Positions 1,670 to 30,483 of a DNA stretch of 38,822 bases are shown one piece after another. The stretch is from NCBI GenBank assembly GCA_003152995.1, contig PMBR01000089.1:1-38822 (forward strand). The letters are read 5' to 3'. Below the pieces are notes generated by a model. It made no database searches. It was given only the letters and a program-made list of their open reading frames with translations, and was not told where the DNA came from. This stretch comes from Chloroflexota bacterium. GTDB taxonomy: Bacteria; Chloroflexota; Limnocylindria; Limnocylindrales; CSP1-4. Each line of letters opens with the position of its first letter. Position 1 is the first letter of the stretch. Position numbers and translations under genes: made by a program.

Positions 1670-2410
1670 ATGCATCTCGATGGCGGCCGCCGACGCGGCT
1701 TCTTCCTGACGCTGGAGGGGCCCGAGGGTTCCGGCAAGTCGACCCAGGCCCAGCGATTAGCTGCTCGGTTGACGGCCGCCGGCCTCTCCTGCGTGGTGAC
1801 CCGCGAGCCGGGCGGGACGGCCCTGGGAGAGGCCGTGCGCCAGATCCTGCTCCACGCCCCCGAGCCGTCGCCCGTGCCCGCCGCGGATGCCCTGCTCTTC
1901 AGCGCGGCCCGAGCCCAGCTCGCGGCCGAGGTCATCGAGCCGGCCCTCGCGCGCGGCGAATTCGTGATCTGCGACCGATTCGGCGATTCGACGCTCGCCT
2001 ACCAGGGGTTCGGCGCCGGCCAGCCACTCGAGGATCTGCGTTCTCTCCAGCGGTTCGCCGTCGGCGATCTTCATCCGGATCTCACCGTGCTGATCGATCT
2101 GCCCGTCGAGGCCGGCCTGGCGCGCAAGCAGGCCGACGAGATCACCCGCTTCGAGGAGCGCGCCGGCGTGGAGTTCCATCAACGAGTGCGCGACGGGTTT
2201 CTGGCGCTGGCCGCCTCCGAGCCCGAGCGTTTCGTAGTCGTCGACGGCCTCGGAACGGCGGACGAAATCGAAGAATCCGTCTTCGGGGCTCTCCGATCGA
2301 AGGCCGGAGTCCGTCTCGAGGTGCCTTCTCGCACCACCGCCGGCTCGGCTGACGCATCTTCGTTCGACCGGAGTGAACCGGATCGCAATTCGCTGCGAAT
2401 GGACAGATGA
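1670..2410 (+). CDS. tmk: Thymidylate kinase (dTMP kinase)
   Basis: The enzyme phosphorylates dTMP to dTDP with ATP in the cytoplasm, a required step for dTTP. The 246-residue protein shows the P-loop GPEGSGKST near residue 18, the TREPGGT dTMP-binding segment, the CDRFGDST DR(Y/F) motif near residue 100, and the LID/helix region RFEERAGVEFHQRVRDGF. Members are usually 205-215 residues long, so the last 30 or so (Ser/Thr/Asp/Arg-rich) are an extension of no recognised function. The ATG sits directly behind a possible -10 box, so the mRNA may be leaderless. The stop overlaps the next gene's ATG (ATGA), so the sigma factor gene is probably co-transcribed and translationally coupled. Confidence 0.95.
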   Translation: MHLDGGRRRGFFLTLEGPEGSGKSTQAQRLAARLTAAGLSCVVTREPGGTALGEAVRQILLHAPEPSPVPAADALLFSAARAQLAAEVIEPALARGEFVICDRFGDSTLAYQGFGAGQPLEDLRSLQRFAVGDLHPDLTVLIDLPVEAGLARKQADEITRFEERAGVEFHQRVRDGFLALAASEPERFVVVDGLGTADEIEESVFGALRSKAGVRLEVPSRTTAGSADASSFDRSEPDRNSLRMDR

Positions 2411-3042
2411 AGGACCCGTTGGTCGTGGCCCCGCCCCTGGTCATGCCTGAGGGATCTTCGGAGGGCCAATCGGAGGCTGAATTGATGCGCCAGGTCGCCG
2501 CCGGTCAAATCGGCGGACTAGAGACGCTATACGACCGCTACCGCGGGATGGCGTATGCGCTCGCCCTGCGCATCACGACGGAGACCGGGATGGCGGAAGA
2601 CGTCGTCCAGGATTCGTTCATGGGACTCTGGCGCAACGCCGGGCGCTATGCCGAAGACAAGGGCAGCGTCAAGGGCTGGCTGCTTGCCATCGTCCGTCAC
2701 CGAGCCATCGATTCGATGCGCCGCCGCAGGAATGGCGTCGCGATTGCCGATGAAACGGAGGAGCCGCTCCCTGCGGCCCTGACGCTCCCCGATATCTGGC
2801 CCGAGGTGGCCGGACGTCTCGATGCACTGCAGATCCGGGTCGCGCTGGCGAAATTGCCGGAGGCGCAGCGCGACGCGATCGAGCTGGCCTATTACGACGG
2901 CCTGACTCAGCGGGAGATCGCCACCCGGACCGGCGCCCCTCTCGGCACGGTCAAGAGCAGGATGCGGCTGGGGCTCGTCTCTCTGCGCCGCGAGCTGATG
3001 GATATGGCCGAGGGGTTCGCCGGCCCGAAAGGCGAGGGCTGA
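2407..3042 (+). CDS. ECF-type RNA polymerase sigma factor (paired with RskA-type anti-sigma)
   Basis: This is a sigma-70 family protein of the extracytoplasmic-function class, 211 residues long. Region 2 is visible around residues 40-100 (LYDRYRGMAYALALRI, then EDVVQDSFMGLWRNAGRY, then GWLLAIVRHRAIDSMRRRRN). Region 4 lies around residues 145-195 (LPEAQRDAIELAYYDGLTQREIA and GTVKSRMRLGL, the helix-turn-helix). The start overlaps the tmk stop by four bases. An anti-sigma gene follows after one base, the classic signal-responsive module. The resemblance is to the SigK/SigL group paired with RskA-type regulators. The signal and regulon cannot be read from the sequence. Confidence 0.92.
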   Translation: MKDPLVVAPPLVMPEGSSEGQSEAELMRQVAAGQIGGLETLYDRYRGMAYALALRITTETGMAEDVVQDSFMGLWRNAGRYAEDKGSVKGWLLAIVRHRAIDSMRRRRNGVAIADETEEPLPAALTLPDIWPEVAGRLDALQIRVALAKLPEAQRDAIELAYYDGLTQREIATRTGAPLGTVKSRMRLGLVSLRRELMDMAEGFAGPKGEG

Positions 3043-3043
3043 G

Positions 3044-3919
3044 ATGGCCATCGGATGCGATCAAGTTCGTGACCTGGCCCCCGGGTTCGTCATGGGGGCG
3101 CTGGACGCGGCCGAAATGGCCGCCGTGCGGGCACACATGAGCACCTGCGCGAAGCCTCACCCGGAGCTGCGCGAGATGGGCGGCATACTGCCGTACCTCG
3201 GAGGCTCGCTCGATCCCGTCGAGCCGGCGAAACACCTGCGCGCTGCCGTCATGGCGGCGGCGCTGGCCGATCTGCAGGCTCGTTCGGTTGAAAAGGAAGC
3301 GCCGGCTGGGCCGGTCGCAGTCGCGCCGGAAACCGCGCCCGTGTTGACGGTTCTGGAATCGGGCCGGTCCGCCGGCCTGGTTTCGCTGGCCCGCGTTCGC
3401 GCTCTCCGCACCCGCCGCGCCGCCACGTGGCTGACCCGCGTGGCCGCCGCCGTCGTCATCGTCGGCCTGGTAGGCCATGCCGTGGCCGTGCAGGGCGATC
3501 TGAACCACGCTCACGACGCGCAGGCCACCGCCAACAACTTCTACGACAACCTCGGCCAGCCTGGGGCTCGCTCCGCGGTTCTGATTCCGGAGGCCGGGCG
3601 CAAGGGCGCCGGTGACGCGGTCCTGCTGCCGAGCGGCCACGTCGAAGTGCTCCTGCATGCCCTGACGCCGACGACGGGCGACGAGGTCTACATGGTCTGG
3701 TCGAGCGTCGACGGCGGCAGCGTCGTCAAGGCCGGCGCGTTCACGGTGGACGACACGGGCGTGGGCTACCTGAAGATGGACAACGTTCCGCCCACAGACT
3801 CGCTGTGGCTGATGGTGTGCCGCGAGCCCAACGGCCAGGTGCAGAAGCCCACCGGCCCCGCGATCGTCACCGGGACGATCTGGGTCTACTCGACGCCCGA
3901 GCCAGCTTCGACGTTCTGA
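3044..3919 (+). CDS. Membrane-anchored anti-sigma factor, RskA type
   Basis: The 291-residue protein should hold the preceding sigma factor at the membrane. The N-terminal domain (CDQVRDLAPGFVMGALDAAE, then AVRAHMSTCAKPH) matches the anti-sigma zinc-binding helix. The usual H-x3-C-x2-C is replaced by H31-x3-C35-x3-H39. A single membrane segment lies near residues 127-148 (TWLTRVAAAVVIVGLVGHAV). The extracytoplasmic part (about 175-285) is an RskA C-terminal domain with the strand pattern EVYMVWSSVDGG and SLWLMVCREP. Release of the sigma factor would normally need regulated proteolysis. The gene starts one base after the sigma stop codon. The gene that follows is convergent. Confidence 0.88.
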   Translation: MAIGCDQVRDLAPGFVMGALDAAEMAAVRAHMSTCAKPHPELREMGGILPYLGGSLDPVEPAKHLRAAVMAAALADLQARSVEKEAPAGPVAVAPETAPVLTVLESGRSAGLVSLARVRALRTRRAATWLTRVAAAVVIVGLVGHAVAVQGDLNHAHDAQATANNFYDNLGQPGARSAVLIPEAGRKGAGDAVLLPSGHVEVLLHALTPTTGDEVYMVWSSVDGGSVVKAGAFTVDDTGVGYLKMDNVPPTDSLWLMVCREPNGQVQKPTGPAIVTGTIWVYSTPEPASTF

Positions 3920-4013: not shown

Positions 4014-5048
4014 CTAGCCTGCCGCGGGCGTCTCGGCGACGACCCGACCGCCGCCCGCCTGGCGAGCCGCCGCCATTGCCCGCGTCGCGACCTCGAGCAG
4101 TTCGTCGGACGTCCGCCCGTCCATCGGGAAGCTGGCGATCCCGGCCGACACGGTCACGGTCTTGCCGCCCACCGGCGCGAGAGCGGCGATGCCACGCACC
4201 AGCCGTTCCGCCACGATCAAGCCATCCGGCCCCGGGGCAATCAACATGAACTGGTCTTCCGCGTAGCGCGCCACGGTATCCACCAGCCGGACAGACTCGG
4301 CGAGGATCTGAGCCACGAGGCGCAGCGCTTCGTCGCCGGCCGCGTTGCCGCCTGCTCGCTGGATCTCATCGAACCGATCCACCTCGAACAGGGCGACAGA
4401 AAGTGCCACTCCCTGGCGGCCGGCGCGAGCGACTTCGAGTTCCAGGAGCCGATCGACGGTGCGGCGGTTGGCCAGCCCGGTCAGCGGATCGGTATGGGCC
4501 AGACGATCGAACCACTCGGCGCGTTCGGAGCCGAGCGAAACGGCCAGCGCGCGTTCCACGGCGACGGCCGCCAGATCGGCGAGCGGCTCCGCGCCTCGAA
4601 GAGTTGCGGCCTTCGGCAGCGGGCCCGCGAATCCCAACGCCATCGAACCGAGCGCGATTTCGATGCCGTCGCGCCGCACCACCAGCGGCAGAACGTAGGC
4701 CGTCTTCGCACCCCGAAGCACCGGCACGTGACCGGCGTCGTCGACCGCGAGCGGATGACGCGACCGCGTGGCGCTGGCCAGTGGGTCGTGGCTCTCGGAC
4801 ACGGACTTGACCGAACCTGCGTCGTCGGCGACTTCCGCCGCCGCACCGAACGTGACCGCCAGCCCGAGCTCGTCTTGATCCGCGTCGAGCATGTATATGG
4901 CTCCGACGCTGGCCCCGATATGCTCGCCGGCGAGGCCCAGCAGCTCGGCCAGGGCGTCGTCGAGATCGTCGCTGCGCGCGACTGCGGCGGCAGCGGCCGC
5001 GAAGAGAGCGCTGTCCGATCGTTCGTGGAGTGGCCGTTCGCTCGGCAC
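4014..5048 (-). CDS. GAF-like plus degenerate GGDEF domain protein
   Basis: The start is GTG at 5048, preceded by GGGGAGA at good spacing; the frame stays open far upstream, but that part is antisense to other genes. The product is 344 residues. Residues of roughly 15-170 resemble a GAF-type sensor (SVGAIYMLDADQDELGLAVTFG). A GGDEF domain follows from DPLTGLANRRTVDRLLELE. The signature that should read GGDEF is AEDQF (residues 263-267), so diguanylate cyclase activity is unlikely; the FEVDRFDEIQ metal-site strand is retained. It may bind nucleotide or act as a scaffold or receiver. It lies divergent from the c-di-AMP receptor gene, with 93 bp between the starts. Confidence 0.8.
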   Translation of the reverse strand: MPSERPLHERSDSALFAAAAAAVARSDDLDDALAELLGLAGEHIGASVGAIYMLDADQDELGLAVTFGAAAEVADDAGSVKSVSESHDPLASATRSRHPLAVDDAGHVPVLRGAKTAYVLPLVVRRDGIEIALGSMALGFAGPLPKAATLRGAEPLADLAAVAVERALAVSLGSERAEWFDRLAHTDPLTGLANRRTVDRLLELEVARAGRQGVALSVALFEVDRFDEIQRAGGNAAGDEALRLVAQILAESVRLVDTVARYAEDQFMLIAPGPDGLIVAERLVRGIAALAPVGGKTVTVSAGIASFPMDGRTSDELLEVATRAMAAARQAGGGRVVAETPAAG

Positions 5049-5128
5049 TGACTCTCCCCTGCGGCGGCGACGTAGAACTCTCGCGATTGTACGGCCCCGC
5101 ACCGGCCCGCGCGACACGCCACTCCGCC

Positions 5129-5134
5129 TATACT
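5129..5134 (+). promoter_or_regulatory. Candidate -10 element, leaderless start of the c-di-AMP receptor gene
   Basis: TATACT ends 7 bases before the GTG start, and no Shine-Dalgarno sequence lies between. As with tmk, this spacing suggests a leaderless transcript. No convincing -35 hexamer is present. Confidence 0.45.
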
Positions 5135-5141
5135 CGGGCCC

Positions 5142-5471
5142 GTGAAGCTCGTCGTAGTGGTTGTTCACAACGAGGACGCCAAAGTCCTCATCGACGCGCT
5201 GCTCAAGCGCGAGCATCGGGCCACATGGCTGCACAGTTCGGGCGGTTTTCTCAAGCAGTCGAACGCGACGGTGCTGCTCGGCGTCGAGGACGACAAGGTC
5301 GACGAGATCGTGAGCATCGTGCGCGAGAACTGCCACTCCCGCACGCAGACCGTGAGCCCCATCCCGCCGATCATGGAGCCGGGTGAGTTCTTCCTGCCCT
5401 ACCCGCTCGAGGTCGAAGTCGGTGGCGCGGTCGTCTTCGTCCTCCCGGTCGATCGGTTCGAGCGGATCTAG
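5142..5471 (+). CDS. darA: Cyclic-di-AMP receptor, DarA/PstA type (PII-like fold)
   Basis: The 109-residue protein has the conserved layout of this trimeric PII-like family. There is an N-terminal beta strand (KLVVVVVHNEDAKVLIDALL), the T-loop/ligand segment ATWLHSSGGFLKQSNATVLLG (T, GGFL, N-x-T), then a helix (DKVDEIVSIVREN) and a C-terminal strand ending in VFVLPVDRFERI. Family members bind c-di-AMP and signal on osmolyte or cell-wall state. In Bacillus the orthologue lies just downstream of tmk. Here tmk is 2.7 kb away, with a sigma module and the GGDEF gene between them. The Nudix gene follows 24 bp downstream and may be co-transcribed. Confidence 0.9.
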   Translation: MKLVVVVVHNEDAKVLIDALLKREHRATWLHSSGGFLKQSNATVLLGVEDDKVDEIVSIVRENCHSRTQTVSPIPPIMEPGEFFLPYPLEVEVGGAVVFVLPVDRFERI

Positions 5472-6098: not shown

Positions 6099-6171
6099 AG
6101 GTGCGCGGATGCCTGATCCGCGCCAGACTGAGGCGAGCCGATACCCGTTTCGGTCGGCTGGAGCCTCTTAT

Positions 6172-6190
6172 GTGATGTGAGGGTCATCAC
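6172..6190. promoter_or_regulatory. Inverted repeat at the start of the second sigma gene
   Basis: Perfect arms GTGATG and CATCAC are separated by 7 bases. The repeat overlaps the most upstream GTG start (6177) of the sigma gene. If translation really begins at ATG 6249, this repeat is promoter-proximal and could be an operator. Confidence 0.3.
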
Positions 6191-6731
6191 GCAGCCGCTC
6201 GATGGGAACCAGAAGGACCGGGCCGCCGCAGGGCGGCTCTCGCGGGCCATGCCGGCGGCGCCGACACCCGAGTGGGTCGCCACGCTGCACGTTCACGGTC
6301 CGCTGCTTCTGGCCGCGGCCCGGGCAATCACCCGGGACGAAGCCGAAGCGGAGGATCTGGTCCAGACGACCTTCGAGCGGGCGCTTCGTGCGGCGCCGAC
6401 GATTCGGGACTCGCGCGCAATTCGCGCCTGGCTCCTGACCGTCCAGACGCGCGAGGCGCTGCGAGTCGTTCGGCGGCTTCGTCGAACGCTCCGGCTCGAC
6501 CCGGAGGTCCACGAGCTGCCGATCGGCGGCCCCGACGCCTCCGAATCGATCGAGCTCGACGAGGCGCTTGGGCGTCTCTCGCGGCCGATCCGAGCCGCCG
6601 TGGTCCTCCACCACATGGTTGGACTCTCCGTGCGCGAAACGGCGGATGCGCTGGGCGTCACTGAGAACACAGCAAAGGGACGGCTCAAGACCGGCCTGGC
6701 GCGACTCCGGGAGTTGCTCGATGAAGACTGA
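6177..6731 (+). CDS. ECF-type sigma factor (second module)
   Basis: This sigma-70 family protein is 184 residues from GTG 6177, or 160 from ATG 6249; neither start has a strong RBS. Region 2 is visible at HGPLLLAAARAITRDEAEAEDL, then VQTTFERALRAAP and IRAWLLTVQTREALRVVRRL. Region 4 is at LSRPIRAAVVLHHMVGLSVRE and LGVTENTAKGRLKTGLARLR. The linker between them is short, as in minimal ECF factors. The 3' end overlaps the ATG of a large membrane protein gene by 11 bases, so the two are translationally coupled. That partner would be expected to regulate the sigma factor. Confidence 0.88.
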   Translation: MRVITQPLDGNQKDRAAAGRLSRAMPAAPTPEWVATLHVHGPLLLAAARAITRDEAEAEDLVQTTFERALRAAPTIRDSRAIRAWLLTVQTREALRVVRRLRRTLRLDPEVHELPIGGPDASESIELDEALGRLSRPIRAAVVLHHMVGLSVRETADALGVTENTAKGRLKTGLARLRELLDED

Positions 6732-8664
6732 CATGCGTGGCGGCGCACCCGCCGAAGACGAAGCCACCGACAGGCTCGAAGAGCGGCTCGCCGGCCGCTT
6801 TGCGATCGAGTTGGGCCGCGCCGAGCGCGACTACCCGGCACTGCGTGCGGGGCGTCTCCGGACGCCGGAGCCTCGCCGCCGCGGCATCTGGCCGCGGTTG
6901 GCGGTTTCCGTCACGACGATCGGAGTGCTGGCCGCCCTCGTCGTGGTGGGCGTCGGTCTGGCCTGGCAGCCGGCCGCGCCGCCCGTGGCGCCAGCGCGCT
7001 CGGGCGCCGTATTGGGCGCGGACGGCATTCCGGACCAGATCGACGGCCAGCACGTCTACCGCCTCGCCGCGCAAGGCGACTGGCAGGATCTCAGCGGCAG
7101 CTTCCTGTTGGGCGCCTATGCGGTCGACGCGCCCATCCCGTGCGCGCCTCCGCTGCCGAGCGCTCAACCTCAGGGGTCGTCCGAAAACGCCTTCGTGCCG
7201 CAGTGCGGCACGGTCGAGCTGGTGCCACAGGCGCAGGACAACAGCGAATGGTTCTTCAACCTGGCGCCGCGCGGGTTGGATGTCCTCACGAAGTGGCTAA
7301 ACGGACCCGCGATCGTCATGCGCGTCCATACGCACGACCCCGGTGCGTCCGGCTGCTCGGCGGACCAGAAGACCGCATGCGAGGCCGCGGTCGTGGTCGA
7401 GGCGGTTGTCTGGTCGGGGTCAAATTCGCCGTCGCCAACGCCTACGGACGCGGTCCTCGCCGCAGACGGCATCCCGGCGCAGATCGGTGGGGAGCACGTG
7501 TACCGGTTGAGTGAAGCCTTGCCCAACGGCAGCGGCAGCTTCCTGCTCGGCGGGTACCCGGTCAATTACCCGATCTCGTGCCCGTCAGCCCGGCCGCTGC
7601 CCACGGCCGAGGCGGATCTCGTCGGCCAGTGCGGTGGGACACACCTGGCCTCGAGCGCCGGCCAGAGCCCCGGCTCCGGCCTCTTCACGCTGGCGCCCCG
7701 AGGATCGGACTTGCTCACGCCCTGGCTCGGCGGGCCGGCAGTCGTCATCCGGGCCCACACCCATGACGCGGCCGCGGCCAGCTGCTCCGCCGATACGAAG
7801 GCCGCCTGCGAAGCCGCTGTGGTCGTCGAGTCGGTCGTCTGGCCCGAGGTGCCGACCCAGATCGCCGGCGAGCGCGTCTACCGCGCCGCGGATCAAGCCT
7901 CGTTCCCCACCTCGGGCAGCTTCCTGCTCGGTGGCCCGGTGACAATGCCGGAATTCATGCCGCCCTGCCCGATGCCGATCGATCACACCACCGCCGAGAA
8001 TGACCTGATCCCGTACTGCTACTGGGAGGCCATCGACGGCATTCACGTCGCTCCGAAGGTCGATGCGCTGGCGAATCTCAGTGGCCGCATCGTCGTGGCG
8101 CGAGTCCACATCGGCGACGCCGAGGCGGCCTCATGCCCGATCTCGATCCAGCTTCAGTGCAAGACGGCCGTCGTGGTCGAAGAGGTGGTCTGGACCGGCG
8201 GTGCGGCATCCTCCAGCCCGAATCCGAACCCGACCCCGCAGACGACGCCGAATTCGGCCTCCTCGGAGGCCATCGGACCGGCCGCGACCGACCAGATCGG
8301 GCCGGACGGCGTGCCGATCACACTGGACGGCCAGCCCGTGTACCGGGCCGCTAATCTGCCTGCCAAGCCGATCTTCTTCCTCGGCGGCAAGCTGACGAGC
8401 GACACCGCCTGCGCGGCTCCGGCCACGCCCGCGGCACAGCCGTCTGCCTGCGGCTACTGGATGATCGACGGCGTCCGCGCGGTCGGCACCAGTAATGTCG
8501 TGGAGCCTTATCTCACGGGTCAGGCAATCGTGGCCCAGGTCGAGGTCGGCCGGGCCCTGGCCATCTGCCCGGGCGGATCCTGCACCAAGGACACGTACGT
8601 GATCCTGTCGATTGTCTGGCCTTTGCCCCCTGTCGCGACTCCCCCGGCGCCGCTGACTCCGTAG
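6721..8664 (+). CDS. Single-pass membrane protein with four extracellular repeats, putative non-canonical anti-sigma/sensor
   Basis: From the ATG that overlaps the sigma stop, the product is 647 residues. A cytoplasmic N-terminus of about 57 residues is charged and helical (ATDRLEERLAGRFAIELGRA) but has no zinc-binding H-C-C motif. One membrane segment spans about 60-82 (LAVSVTTIGVLAALVVVGVG). The rest is outside and consists of four repeats of 100-135 residues. Each opens with a (G)xPxxIxGxxVYR signature, has SGSFLLGG-like and Cys-pair elements, and closes with VVVExVVW. Proline/threonine linkers separate some of them. By position and topology it should be the anti-sigma or sensor for the preceding sigma factor. 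The repeat family is not one I recognise. Confidence 0.72.
   Translation: MKTDMRGGAPAEDEATDRLEERLAGRFAIELGRAERDYPALRAGRLRTPEPRRRGIWPRLAVSVTTIGVLAALVVVGVGLAWQPAAPPVAPARSGAVLGADGIPDQIDGQHVYRLAAQGDWQDLSGSFLLGAYAVDAPIPCAPPLPSAQPQGSSENAFVPQCGTVELVPQAQDNSEWFFNLAPRGLDVLTKWLNGPAIVMRVHTHDPGASGCSADQKTACEAAVVVEAVVWSGSNSPSPTPTDAVLAADGIPAQIGGEHVYRLSEALPNGSGSFLLGGYPVNYPISCPSARPLPTAEADLVGQCGGTHLASSAGQSPGSGLFTLAPRGSDLLTPWLGGPAVVIRAHTHDAAAASCSADTKAACEAAVVVESVVWPEVPTQIAGERVYRAADQASFPTSGSFLLGGPVTMPEFMPPCPMPIDHTTAENDLIPYCYWEAIDGIHVAPKVDALANLSGRIVVARVHIGDAEAASCPISIQLQCKTAVVVEEVVWTGGAASSSPNPNPTPQTTPNSASSEAIGPAATDQIGPDGVPITLDGQPVYRAANLPAKPIFFLGGKLTSDTACAAPATPAAQPSACGYWMIDGVRAVGTSNVVEPYLTGQAIVAQVEVGRALAICPGGSCTKDTYVILSIVWPLPPVATPPAPLTP
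7009..8619 (+). repeat. Four in-gene protein-domain repeats
   Basis: The coding sequence holds four related units at about 7009-7413, 7453-7842, 7849-8193 and 8311-8619. Units 1 and 2 are the most alike (ADGIP-x-QI-x-G-x-HVYRL, LAPRG-x-D-x-LT-x-WL-x-GPA, RAHTHD-like, CSAD-x-K-x-ACEAAVVVE). Units 3 and 4 have diverged but keep VYRAA, FFLGG/SFLLGG and the terminal VVW or IVW. This points to tandem domain duplication. Confidence 0.8.
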
Positions 8665-28700: not shown

Positions 28701-29306
28701 ATGAAGGCCCCACGAGGCGACGAGCGAGAGAAAGATGGGCAGGGTGTGGCCGCGGACATTGCGGCGGAACGGGGACGCGTCGACGCGGCCGCCGAGTTCT
28801 CGCGGCTGGCCGATCGCTACCTCGACACCGCGTATCGGCTGGCCAGCGTCATCCTCGGCGACCCGACCGAGGCCGAAGACGCGGCTCACGACGCCGCGGT
28901 CCTGGCCTGGCGGCGGTTCGACACGCTCCGCGACCGCGACCGATTCGAGCAGTGGTTCTGCCGCATCGTCGTCAACGTCTGCCGCGACCGGCTCCGCCAT
29001 CGACGCCGCCATCCGATCGTCGAGCTGCCGTCCGAGGACGACGAACGCGGCGGCTTGGCGGCGCCCGAAGGAGCCGGCCAGTTGCTGGCGCGCGACGCCC
29101 TCGATCGAGCCTTTGTCCGTCTCGATCCCGACCACCAGATCGTGGTCGCTCTGCGCTTCTACCGCGATCTGACCGTGGACGACATAGCGCGCCGACTGGA
29201 GATCCCCGCCGGAACGGTGAAGTCGCGGTTGCACCAGGCGATAGCGCGGTTGCGGGCCGAGCTGGAACGCCAGGGCTGGCGTGAGGAATTCCCCGATGAA
29301 GCCTGA
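28701..29306 (+). CDS. ECF-type sigma factor (third module)
   Basis: The 201-residue protein starts at ATG behind GGAGGGCTG. Region 2 is visible at FSRLADRYLDTAYRLASVIL, PTEAEDAAHDAAVLAWRRFD and FCRIVVNVCRDRLRHRRRH. Region 4 is at LDPDHQIVVALRFYRDLTVD and LEIPAGTVKSRLHQAIARLR. Acidic linker residues (LPSEDDERGG) separate the regions. The stop overlaps the ATG of the next gene by 11 bases, the same overlap length as in the 6.7-kb module. Two related membrane proteins follow and may hold or sense for this sigma factor. Confidence 0.9.
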   Translation: MKAPRGDEREKDGQGVAADIAAERGRVDAAAEFSRLADRYLDTAYRLASVILGDPTEAEDAAHDAAVLAWRRFDTLRDRDRFEQWFCRIVVNVCRDRLRHRRRHPIVELPSEDDERGGLAAPEGAGQLLARDALDRAFVRLDPDHQIVVALRFYRDLTVDDIARRLEIPAGTVKSRLHQAIARLRAELERQGWREEFPDEA

Positions 29307-30483
29307 GCGCAAAGCCCCGATTGGGGGGCGGGTCGAGGACGAACTCCGGACCTGGCTGCGGGGGCGTGACGCCGGGCCTGCGCCGGACCGTCTGCGCTTC
29401 CGCGTGGGCCGCGTCACCCGCGTGGCCGAACAGACGGCGCCTCGGCGCATCTGGGCTCTTCTCCGACCGATCGCTGCGGTCGGCGGCGTTGTCGCCGTAG
29501 CGGTGCTGGTGCTCCTCGCGGCGACTCTGCGCGGCCCGGCCGGGCCCCTGGCAAGCGGACCTATCCCAACCACGAGCCCTTCGCCGACGATCCCGCCCGG
29601 CCTGCCGTTCCCGAACGGCCTGTGGCCCAGGACGGGTGCCGTTCTCGCGGTGCCGCTGGACGGGCCACTTCTCGCGGTGCTCACCTTGGTCCCACTCCTG
29701 CTGGCGGTTCTGCTGCTCGCCCACCTGGCCAAACGCTCCTTCTCGGACGCGCACCGCTCCGTGGCTGACGACTCGGACGCGCGCCGCTCCGTCGCTGATG
29801 ATCCGCCCGGCGCCGGTCTCCGGCGGATGCGGTCGCGCAGATCCTCGGTGCTGCGGATGCTGGGTGTCCTGCTGGCTGCGGCCCTCATCGTCGTCAGCTG
29901 GGACCTGCTCCAGTTCACCCAGATCGCGCCGCTCCAATACGGAAGCGGCTTTGGTTCAGACCCGACACACACGCTCGGTTCCAGGATGAGTGCGGGTGGC
30001 GGGCCTGAAGAGACATACATGGCATTCGTCCCGGGCGGCCAGCTTCGACTCACACTGACTCTGGCCAATAGCGGCCAGCTGCCGTTGACGGTCACCTCGT
30101 TCGACACGCAGCGTTTCCGGGTCGATCAACCAGCAGGCGCCTTCGTCTCCTCAGTGGAGATCCTTCTGCCAGCGGGCGCGACCTTCAGCGGCTGGTCCCC
30201 GACGGACTACCACACCGAGGCTTTCCATCCTTTCGAACTACAGCCTCAGAGCGAGACTGAGTTCGCGCTCGTTCTTCACTTGAAGGTTTGCGGGTCCGTG
30301 GCACCGGGCCCCACTCCGGCGCCGGACGCCGCGCGGAACGACCCGTACCTGCCCACAACCGGCTACGTCACCATCGGCGAACTCCCCTTCCGGTACAGCG
30401 TTCTGGGTGTCGAGCGTGAGATCGATGTTCCGCTGAGCGAAGCGATAGGCCTCGTATTCGGCTCGAAGGCGGTGACCTGCTGA
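29296..30483 (+). CDS. Three-helix membrane protein with extracytoplasmic beta domain, putative anti-sigma partner
   Basis: From ATG 29296, inside the sigma gene, the product is 395 residues. The first 50 residues are charged and lie before membrane helix 1 (54-77, LLRPIAAVGGVVAVAVLVLL). Helix 2 (125-144) and helix 3 (about 185-205, VLRMLGVLLAAALIVVSWDL) flank a cytoplasmic or extracytoplasmic loop with a 10-residue duplication (SDAHRSVADD twice). The C-terminal domain is beta-rich (GQLRLTLTLANSGQLPLTVT, then EFALVLHLKVCG), like an Ig-type or DUF11-like fold. The N-terminus has no zinc finger. The position after the sigma gene suggests anti-sigma or sensor function. The stop overlaps the next start (TGATG). 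Confidence 0.7.
   Translation: MKPERKAPIGGRVEDELRTWLRGRDAGPAPDRLRFRVGRVTRVAEQTAPRRIWALLRPIAAVGGVVAVAVLVLLAATLRGPAGPLASGPIPTTSPSPTIPPGLPFPNGLWPRTGAVLAVPLDGPLLAVLTLVPLLLAVLLLAHLAKRSFSDAHRSVADDSDARRSVADDPPGAGLRRMRSRRSSVLRMLGVLLAAALIVVSWDLLQFTQIAPLQYGSGFGSDPTHTLGSRMSAGGGPEETYMAFVPGGQLRLTLTLANSGQLPLTVTSFDTQRFRVDQPAGAFVSSVEILLPAGATFSGWSPTDYHTEAFHPFELQPQSETEFALVLHLKVCGSVAPGPTPAPDAARNDPYLPTTGYVTIGELPFRYSVLGVEREIDVPLSEAIGLVFGSKAVTC
29743..29802 (+). repeat. Two tandem 30-bp units within the coding sequence
   Basis: The units encode SDAHRSVADD and SDARRSVADD. They differ at only a few bases, so the duplication is recent or maintained. They lie in the loop between helices 2 and 3. Confidence 0.7.

Follow-up and report, generated by a model that had tools for sequence, protein, structure and literature searches.

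The external signals to which an ECF sigma factor responds are determined by anti-sigma factors. Class I anti-sigma domains have been matched to only about one in three ECF sigma factors (PMC7406223). The locus described here lies at 6177-8664 in a Chloroflexota contig of 38,822 nucleotides (hereafter, the window), and it raises the question of how an ECF sigma factor might be controlled by a neighbor that carries no recognizable anti-sigma domain. The overlapping downstream gene encodes a membrane protein, which a first-pass annotation of the sequence had assigned, from its position, to the control of the sigma factor. Here, we describe the gene pair, its exported repeats, and its N-terminal helix, and then weigh this assignment against the alternatives.

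The gene pair and its domains

The upstream gene encodes an ECF sigma factor. Its product contains region 2 and region 4_2 only, both above the curated Pfam cutoffs (Sigma70_r2, E = 6.9e-15, 55 bits with a cutoff of 24; Sigma70_r4_2, E = 1.3e-9, 38 bits with a cutoff of 25.7), and it scores 63.8 bits against the NCBIfam sigma70-ECF model TIGR02937 (cutoff 42.9). The best NCBIfam subfamily model, SigE family TIGR02983, gave 91.5 bits, below its cutoff of 141.55. The coordinates, lengths, and overlap given for the two genes in the first-pass annotation are all correct (Table 1); the overlap is 11 bp, and the -11 overlapping start of the partner is retained in most syntenic orthologs.

Table 1. 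Features of the sigma factor locus, with positions in the window.
Feature	Position	Strand	Basis
Conserved block ATACCC-N18-CTCTTA, candidate sigma-operon promoter, leaderless-like	6141..6170	+	10/10 syntenic loci
Inverted repeat GTGATG-N7-CATCAC, overlapping the sigma start	6172..6190	+	0.04 expected in window
ECF sigma factor gene, 184 aa, GTG start	6177..6731	+	Sigma70_r2, Sigma70_r4_2; above TIGR02937 cutoff
Proposed anti-sigma factor gene, single-pass membrane protein, 647 aa, ATG start	6721..8664	+	11 bp overlap with sigma stop
Predicted cytoplasmic helix, residues 16-44, motif ExxxAxxD, candidate sigma-binding element	6766..6852	+	AF2 model, conservation, profile matches behind sigma genes
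Single membrane helix, residues 60-82	6898..6966	+	Hydropathy 2.5; model helix 62-81
Repeat 1, residues 104-231, four Cys	7030..7413	+	Repeat profile
Repeat 2, residues 252-374, four Cys, predicted OB-like barrel	7474..7842	+	Repeat profile, structure model
Repeat 3, residues 378-491, four Cys	7852..8193	+	Repeat profile
Repeat 4, residues 532-633, divergent, four Cys, ends IVW	8314..8619	+	Repeat profile

As in membrane anti-sigma factors, the partner gene lies directly behind the sigma gene, and its product has one membrane helix; hydropathy gave a single hydrophobic segment at residues ~60-82, with which the structure model agrees. The charges and the paired cysteines suggest that the N-terminus is cytoplasmic and the C-terminus extracytoplasmic. 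Pfam gave no match to the partner at E values up to 1, and no NCBIfam model reached its cutoff, which bears out the earlier remark that the partner fits no recognized anti-sigma family. Its short N-terminus was also described correctly: residues 1-59 include no His and no Cys, so the HxxxCxxC motif is absent. With no zf-HC2 match either, the partner falls outside the zinc-binding class I (ZAS) proteins, which carry that motif in a helical N-terminal domain of ~100 residues. The window provides a positive control, as another ECF sigma gene 3 kb upstream (2407-3042) is also directly followed by its partner gene (3044-3919), an RskA-type zinc anti-sigma factor in which the same Pfam scan found the zf-HC2 and RskA_C domains that the 647-residue protein lacks. 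An ordinary zinc anti-sigma domain in the latter would thus have shown.

The predicted extracytoplasmic repeats

The single membrane helix and four repeats reported for the 647-residue partner were all found again, by hydropathy and by a repeat profile that matched repeats 1 to 4 with E values of 3e-35, 6e-35, 4e-35, and 1e-17 in a genome scan. The repeats had been described as all ending in VVW, which is true of three, the divergent fourth being the exception. Together they contain 16 cysteines, four each, and these four are invariant among 37 diverse repeats; in repeat 2 they are Cys287, Cys304, Cys355, and Cys363. Searching the class with the same profile (A1) placed the domain in 67 of 177 genomes; among 400 genomes sampled across the phylum, 23 carried it, and every one of these belongs to the same class.

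The AlphaFold model of repeat 2, built on a 34-sequence alignment, has a mean pLDDT of 89 and a pTM of 0.84. In an OB fold, five strands form a barrel and a helix lies between the third and fourth of them; the strand order of the model fits such a barrel. OB domains are numerous among the Foldseek and VIA neighbors listed for repeat 2 (Pol delta, RPA, CST, MCM, CcmE, YgiW, 3f1z), and these include extracytoplasmic bacterial proteins (YgiW, CcmE, and the lipoprotein 3f1z). As the structural scores are low (best VIA Z of 5.5, no Foldseek E below 0.001), the OB assignment rests on weak structural matches, and we refer to repeat 2 as a predicted "OB-like" barrel. The full-length partner model is poor (pLDDT 57), and the domain arrangement is unreadable from it.

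The repeat sequences had no curated match in Pfam, the repeat profile had no match, and thus no convincing one, among PDB sequences, and a search of a viral fold library found nothing; this suggests that the repeat family is undescribed. Sister species carry between 2 and 5 repeats at the syntenic locus, a natural series on sensor length versus signaling.

Co-occurrence with ECF sigma genes

Across the class (177 genomes), 57 of the 99 repeat-bearing ORFs examined have an ECF sigma gene directly upstream on the same strand. Eight ORFs were dropped because they had too little upstream DNA or were cut off, which leaves 57 of 91 evaluable repeat proteins with a sigma gene and 34 without. Repeat proteins therefore do not occur mostly apart from sigma genes, in line with the pairing proposed at first. 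Sigma region 4 matches number ~50 in the 3.05 Mb of this genome, roughly one per 60 kb, so adjacency by chance is negligible. The genome has three sigma/repeat-protein pairs, the two further ones on contigs C74 and C33, and homologs occur in 20 of 61 near genomes, so the observation is not due to chance. The gap from sigma stop to partner start has a median of -4 nt in 54 pairs, a value that is partly by construction, because starts were chosen by nearness to the sigma stop; the recurring ATGA-type, -8, and -11 overlaps are not. The gene order is syntenic genus-wide (GGDEF, c-di-AMP receptor, NUDIX, sigma, partner, ABM, Fe-ADH), and the sigma factors of these loci share 78-94% identity over the aligned part. 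The hosts of the pairs are soil and fen Chloroflexota, and relatives include Chloroflexi MAGs from fen samples. Judged from these relatives and the pattern of kinship, the class is most likely Limnocylindria and the family CSP1-4 (compare PMC13212565). At one locus, L044 (G006:C76), a frameshift or an assembly error divides the sigma gene into two frames.

A lipobox is present in 11 of the 34 repeat proteins without a sigma gene vs 2 of the 57 with one (Fisher p = 2.5e-4). The orphans L039 and L042 (= L163, L168) have three repeats behind an N-terminus of another kind that lacks the helix, and neither has a sigma gene; in L039, the three OB-like repeats are followed by a long Kelch-like region. 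Given the sigma-less proteins and the lipoproteins among them, we ruled out the repeats themselves as a marker of anti-sigma function. Since sigma-less repeat proteins are often lipoproteins that lack the helix, the repeats make up a general module of exported proteins, and the mark of the sigma partner is the N-terminal helix.

The N-terminal helix

The AlphaFold model of the partner places one helix at residues 16-44 (pLDDT ~70, in a model that is poor overall at 57), where Pfam is silent. The N-terminus at this locus (type A) follows the pattern R-h-xxx-F-xx-E-h-xx-A-E-x-D, and conservation of E30, A34, and D37 reaches 90% or more across 30 sequences; a type B N-terminus reads W-D-D-E-R-L-xx-A-Y ... 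A-P-xx-L. No partner N-terminus had a curated Pfam match, and the N-terminal profile had no meaningful match to any solved chain in the PDB sequences, the single one being meaningless (E = 3.8).

Rather than a new element, the N-terminus could be a class I domain that diverged and lost its zinc site, with the mechanism otherwise as proposed below. Around 44% of class I domains do lack the zinc motif, but they average 101 residues (PMC7406223), against 41-75 residues before the membrane helix in 54 pairs here. The single helix predicted in the poor full-length model, where class I domains without zinc (RskA, RseA type) have a four-helix fold, may also speak against this origin, as does the lack of a Pfam match for the partner when the class I protein at 3044-3919 was recognized. 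Altogether, we consider such a derivation unlikely, and the helix appears instead to be an undescribed minimal element whose family is absent from Pfam and NCBIfam.

Distances between sigma factors correlate with those between their partners' N-termini (rho 0.56, 0 of 2000 permutations), and also with those between first repeats (rho 0.52), so the N-terminus correlation by itself indicates co-inheritance only; part of it appears to be shared ancestry. More informative are the relatives of this sigma factor, behind which lie genes for membrane proteins that share this type of N-terminus but differ in ectodomain: some have OB-like repeats, others Kelch-like or propeller-like sequence (by eye), and others unassigned regions. 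Related N-termini joined to Kelch-like ectodomains were seen behind the sigma relatives at L201, L203, L204, and L208.

We trained an N-terminal profile on 23 repeat-bearing N-termini and searched 6767 ORFs, a set enriched for sigma loci. The profile recovered several held-out partners with other ectodomains (E values of 9e-7 to 4e-4). By an automatic check, every new match below 1e-3 has an upstream sigma gene except L076 (the G020 ortholog), where the N-terminus is broken by a run of unknown bases, on the far side of which the sigma gene is located. Among the 6767 ORFs, there was no convincing match away from sigma genes. Because this set is enriched for sigma loci, a scan of the phylum was added: all 12 matches below 1e-9, largely training members, have a sigma gene upstream, and the same holds for a weak match in a different family of this phylum (G430, E = 1e-3). 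The remaining weak matches mostly lack a sigma gene and look like chance. The helix thus appears to occur essentially only behind sigma genes and to be common to partners with unrelated outer domains. Together with co-inheritance and the gene overlap, this supports, beyond position, the original proposal that the partner controls the sigma factor.

The window includes a third ECF sigma gene (28701-29306), which overlaps a gene (29281-30483) for a 400-residue protein without a Pfam match; the N-terminus of this protein (VEDELRTWLRGRDAGPAPDRLRFRV) resembles the type B zinc-less kind.

Comparison with known anti-sigma systems

In class II anti-sigma domains (CnrY, NepR), two short helices wrap the sigma factor and bind sigma4 and sigma2. 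To our knowledge, the class III protein RsbN, the partner of the ECF sigma factor BldN, has no zinc site. The sigma-binding region of CnrY and NepR resembles the candidate one of our partner in being short, zinc-free, and made of few helices, and CnrY is membrane-bound and the anti-sigma factor of an ECF sigma factor; however, CnrY uses two helices (PMC7406223) where one is predicted here, and the ectodomains differ. RsbN is also membrane-anchored, but contacts its sigma factor with three helices (PMC7406223). In size, the candidate sigma-binding element seems to come closest to the domains of class II, of which CnrY is an example (PMC7406223).

In its way of working, the partner may be likened to RsgI for its exchangeable sensors and to RsiV for a direct extracellular signal. 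RsgI of Clostridium thermocellum, which has many paralogs paired with sigma genes, has the layout proposed for the partner, with a cytoplasmic N-terminus, a single membrane helix, and exchangeable extracellular sensor domains (PMC12203970). In contrast to the partner, RsgI pairs with sigma-I rather than an ECF sigma factor, has its own N-terminal domain, and carries a periplasmic autocleavage domain and no OB repeats; the ECF neighbor and the lack of any Pfam match show that the partner is not an RsgI. The ectodomain of RsiV from Bacillus subtilis differs too and is not known to be made of tandem repeats. RsiV is an ECF anti-sigma factor that responds to the extracellular protein lysozyme and undergoes regulated intramembrane proteolysis (PMC6066255).

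These precedents also bear on whether the partner could be a positive regulator or co-sensor that tethers or activates the sigma factor instead of inhibiting it. The evidence linking the two proteins is association, and the helix fits no Pfam anti-sigma domain, both of which would be compatible with activation; yet established short-N-terminus membrane neighbors of ECF sigma factors, such as CnrY, RsbN, RskA, and RsiV, are inhibitors (PMC7406223, PMC8103513, PMC6066255), which makes a positive role quite improbable.

Proposed mechanism and expression

We therefore consider it highly probable that the locus encodes a unit of an ECF sigma factor and a zinc-less membrane anti-sigma factor with a minimal helix and an outer sensor that can be exchanged, in this case a tandem array of OB-like barrels. 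Membrane anti-sigma systems are known; what appears new is an undescribed minimal helix joined to an undescribed OB-like repeat. If the helix marks anti-sigma partners, many unannotated Chloroflexota ECF systems could be paired.

In such a unit, the cytoplasmic helix (residues ~16-44) would bind the sigma factor and hold it off RNA polymerase, and translational coupling of the overlapping genes would give matched amounts of the two proteins. Outside the membrane, the OB-like repeats, each with two predicted disulfides, would bind a ligand or partner, and this binding would release the sigma factor, most plausibly by regulated proteolysis including a site-2 protease. This genome includes a full-length Peptidase_M50 match, which is compatible with, and permits, the proteolytic step; site-2-type (Peptidase_M50) proteases are near universal. 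Once free, the sigma factor would drive its own operon through the conserved element upstream, along with other genes, perhaps a small set.

The upstream block ends 6 nt before the GTG start of the sigma gene, and it is present in all syntenic loci examined, divergent ones included, with CTCCTA in one. A sigma-70 promoter scan and an Rfam search found nothing, and this genome has no second copy of the block, even with 1 mismatch, so that no regulon is visible. The spacing fits a leaderless promoter, and autoregulation is plausible. Operon autoregulation, which the conserved block suggests, would also suit a partner that simply belongs to the sigma regulon and is an exported protein with OB repeats and an ordinary signal anchor. 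So would the finding that the same repeats occur in exported proteins, lipoproteins among them, that have no sigma gene. But a signal anchor would not need the ExxxAxxD motif or its retention across unrelated ectodomains essentially only behind sigma genes, and we regard this reading as very unlikely.

Returning to the proposed anti-sigma locus, the inverted repeat over the sigma start is largely retained in orthologs; its right arm is also coding. Just upstream of the sigma gene are a minus-strand GGDEF diguanylate cyclase gene (within 4014-5471) and a cyclic-di-AMP receptor gene (5142-5471), in an order that is conserved across the genus.
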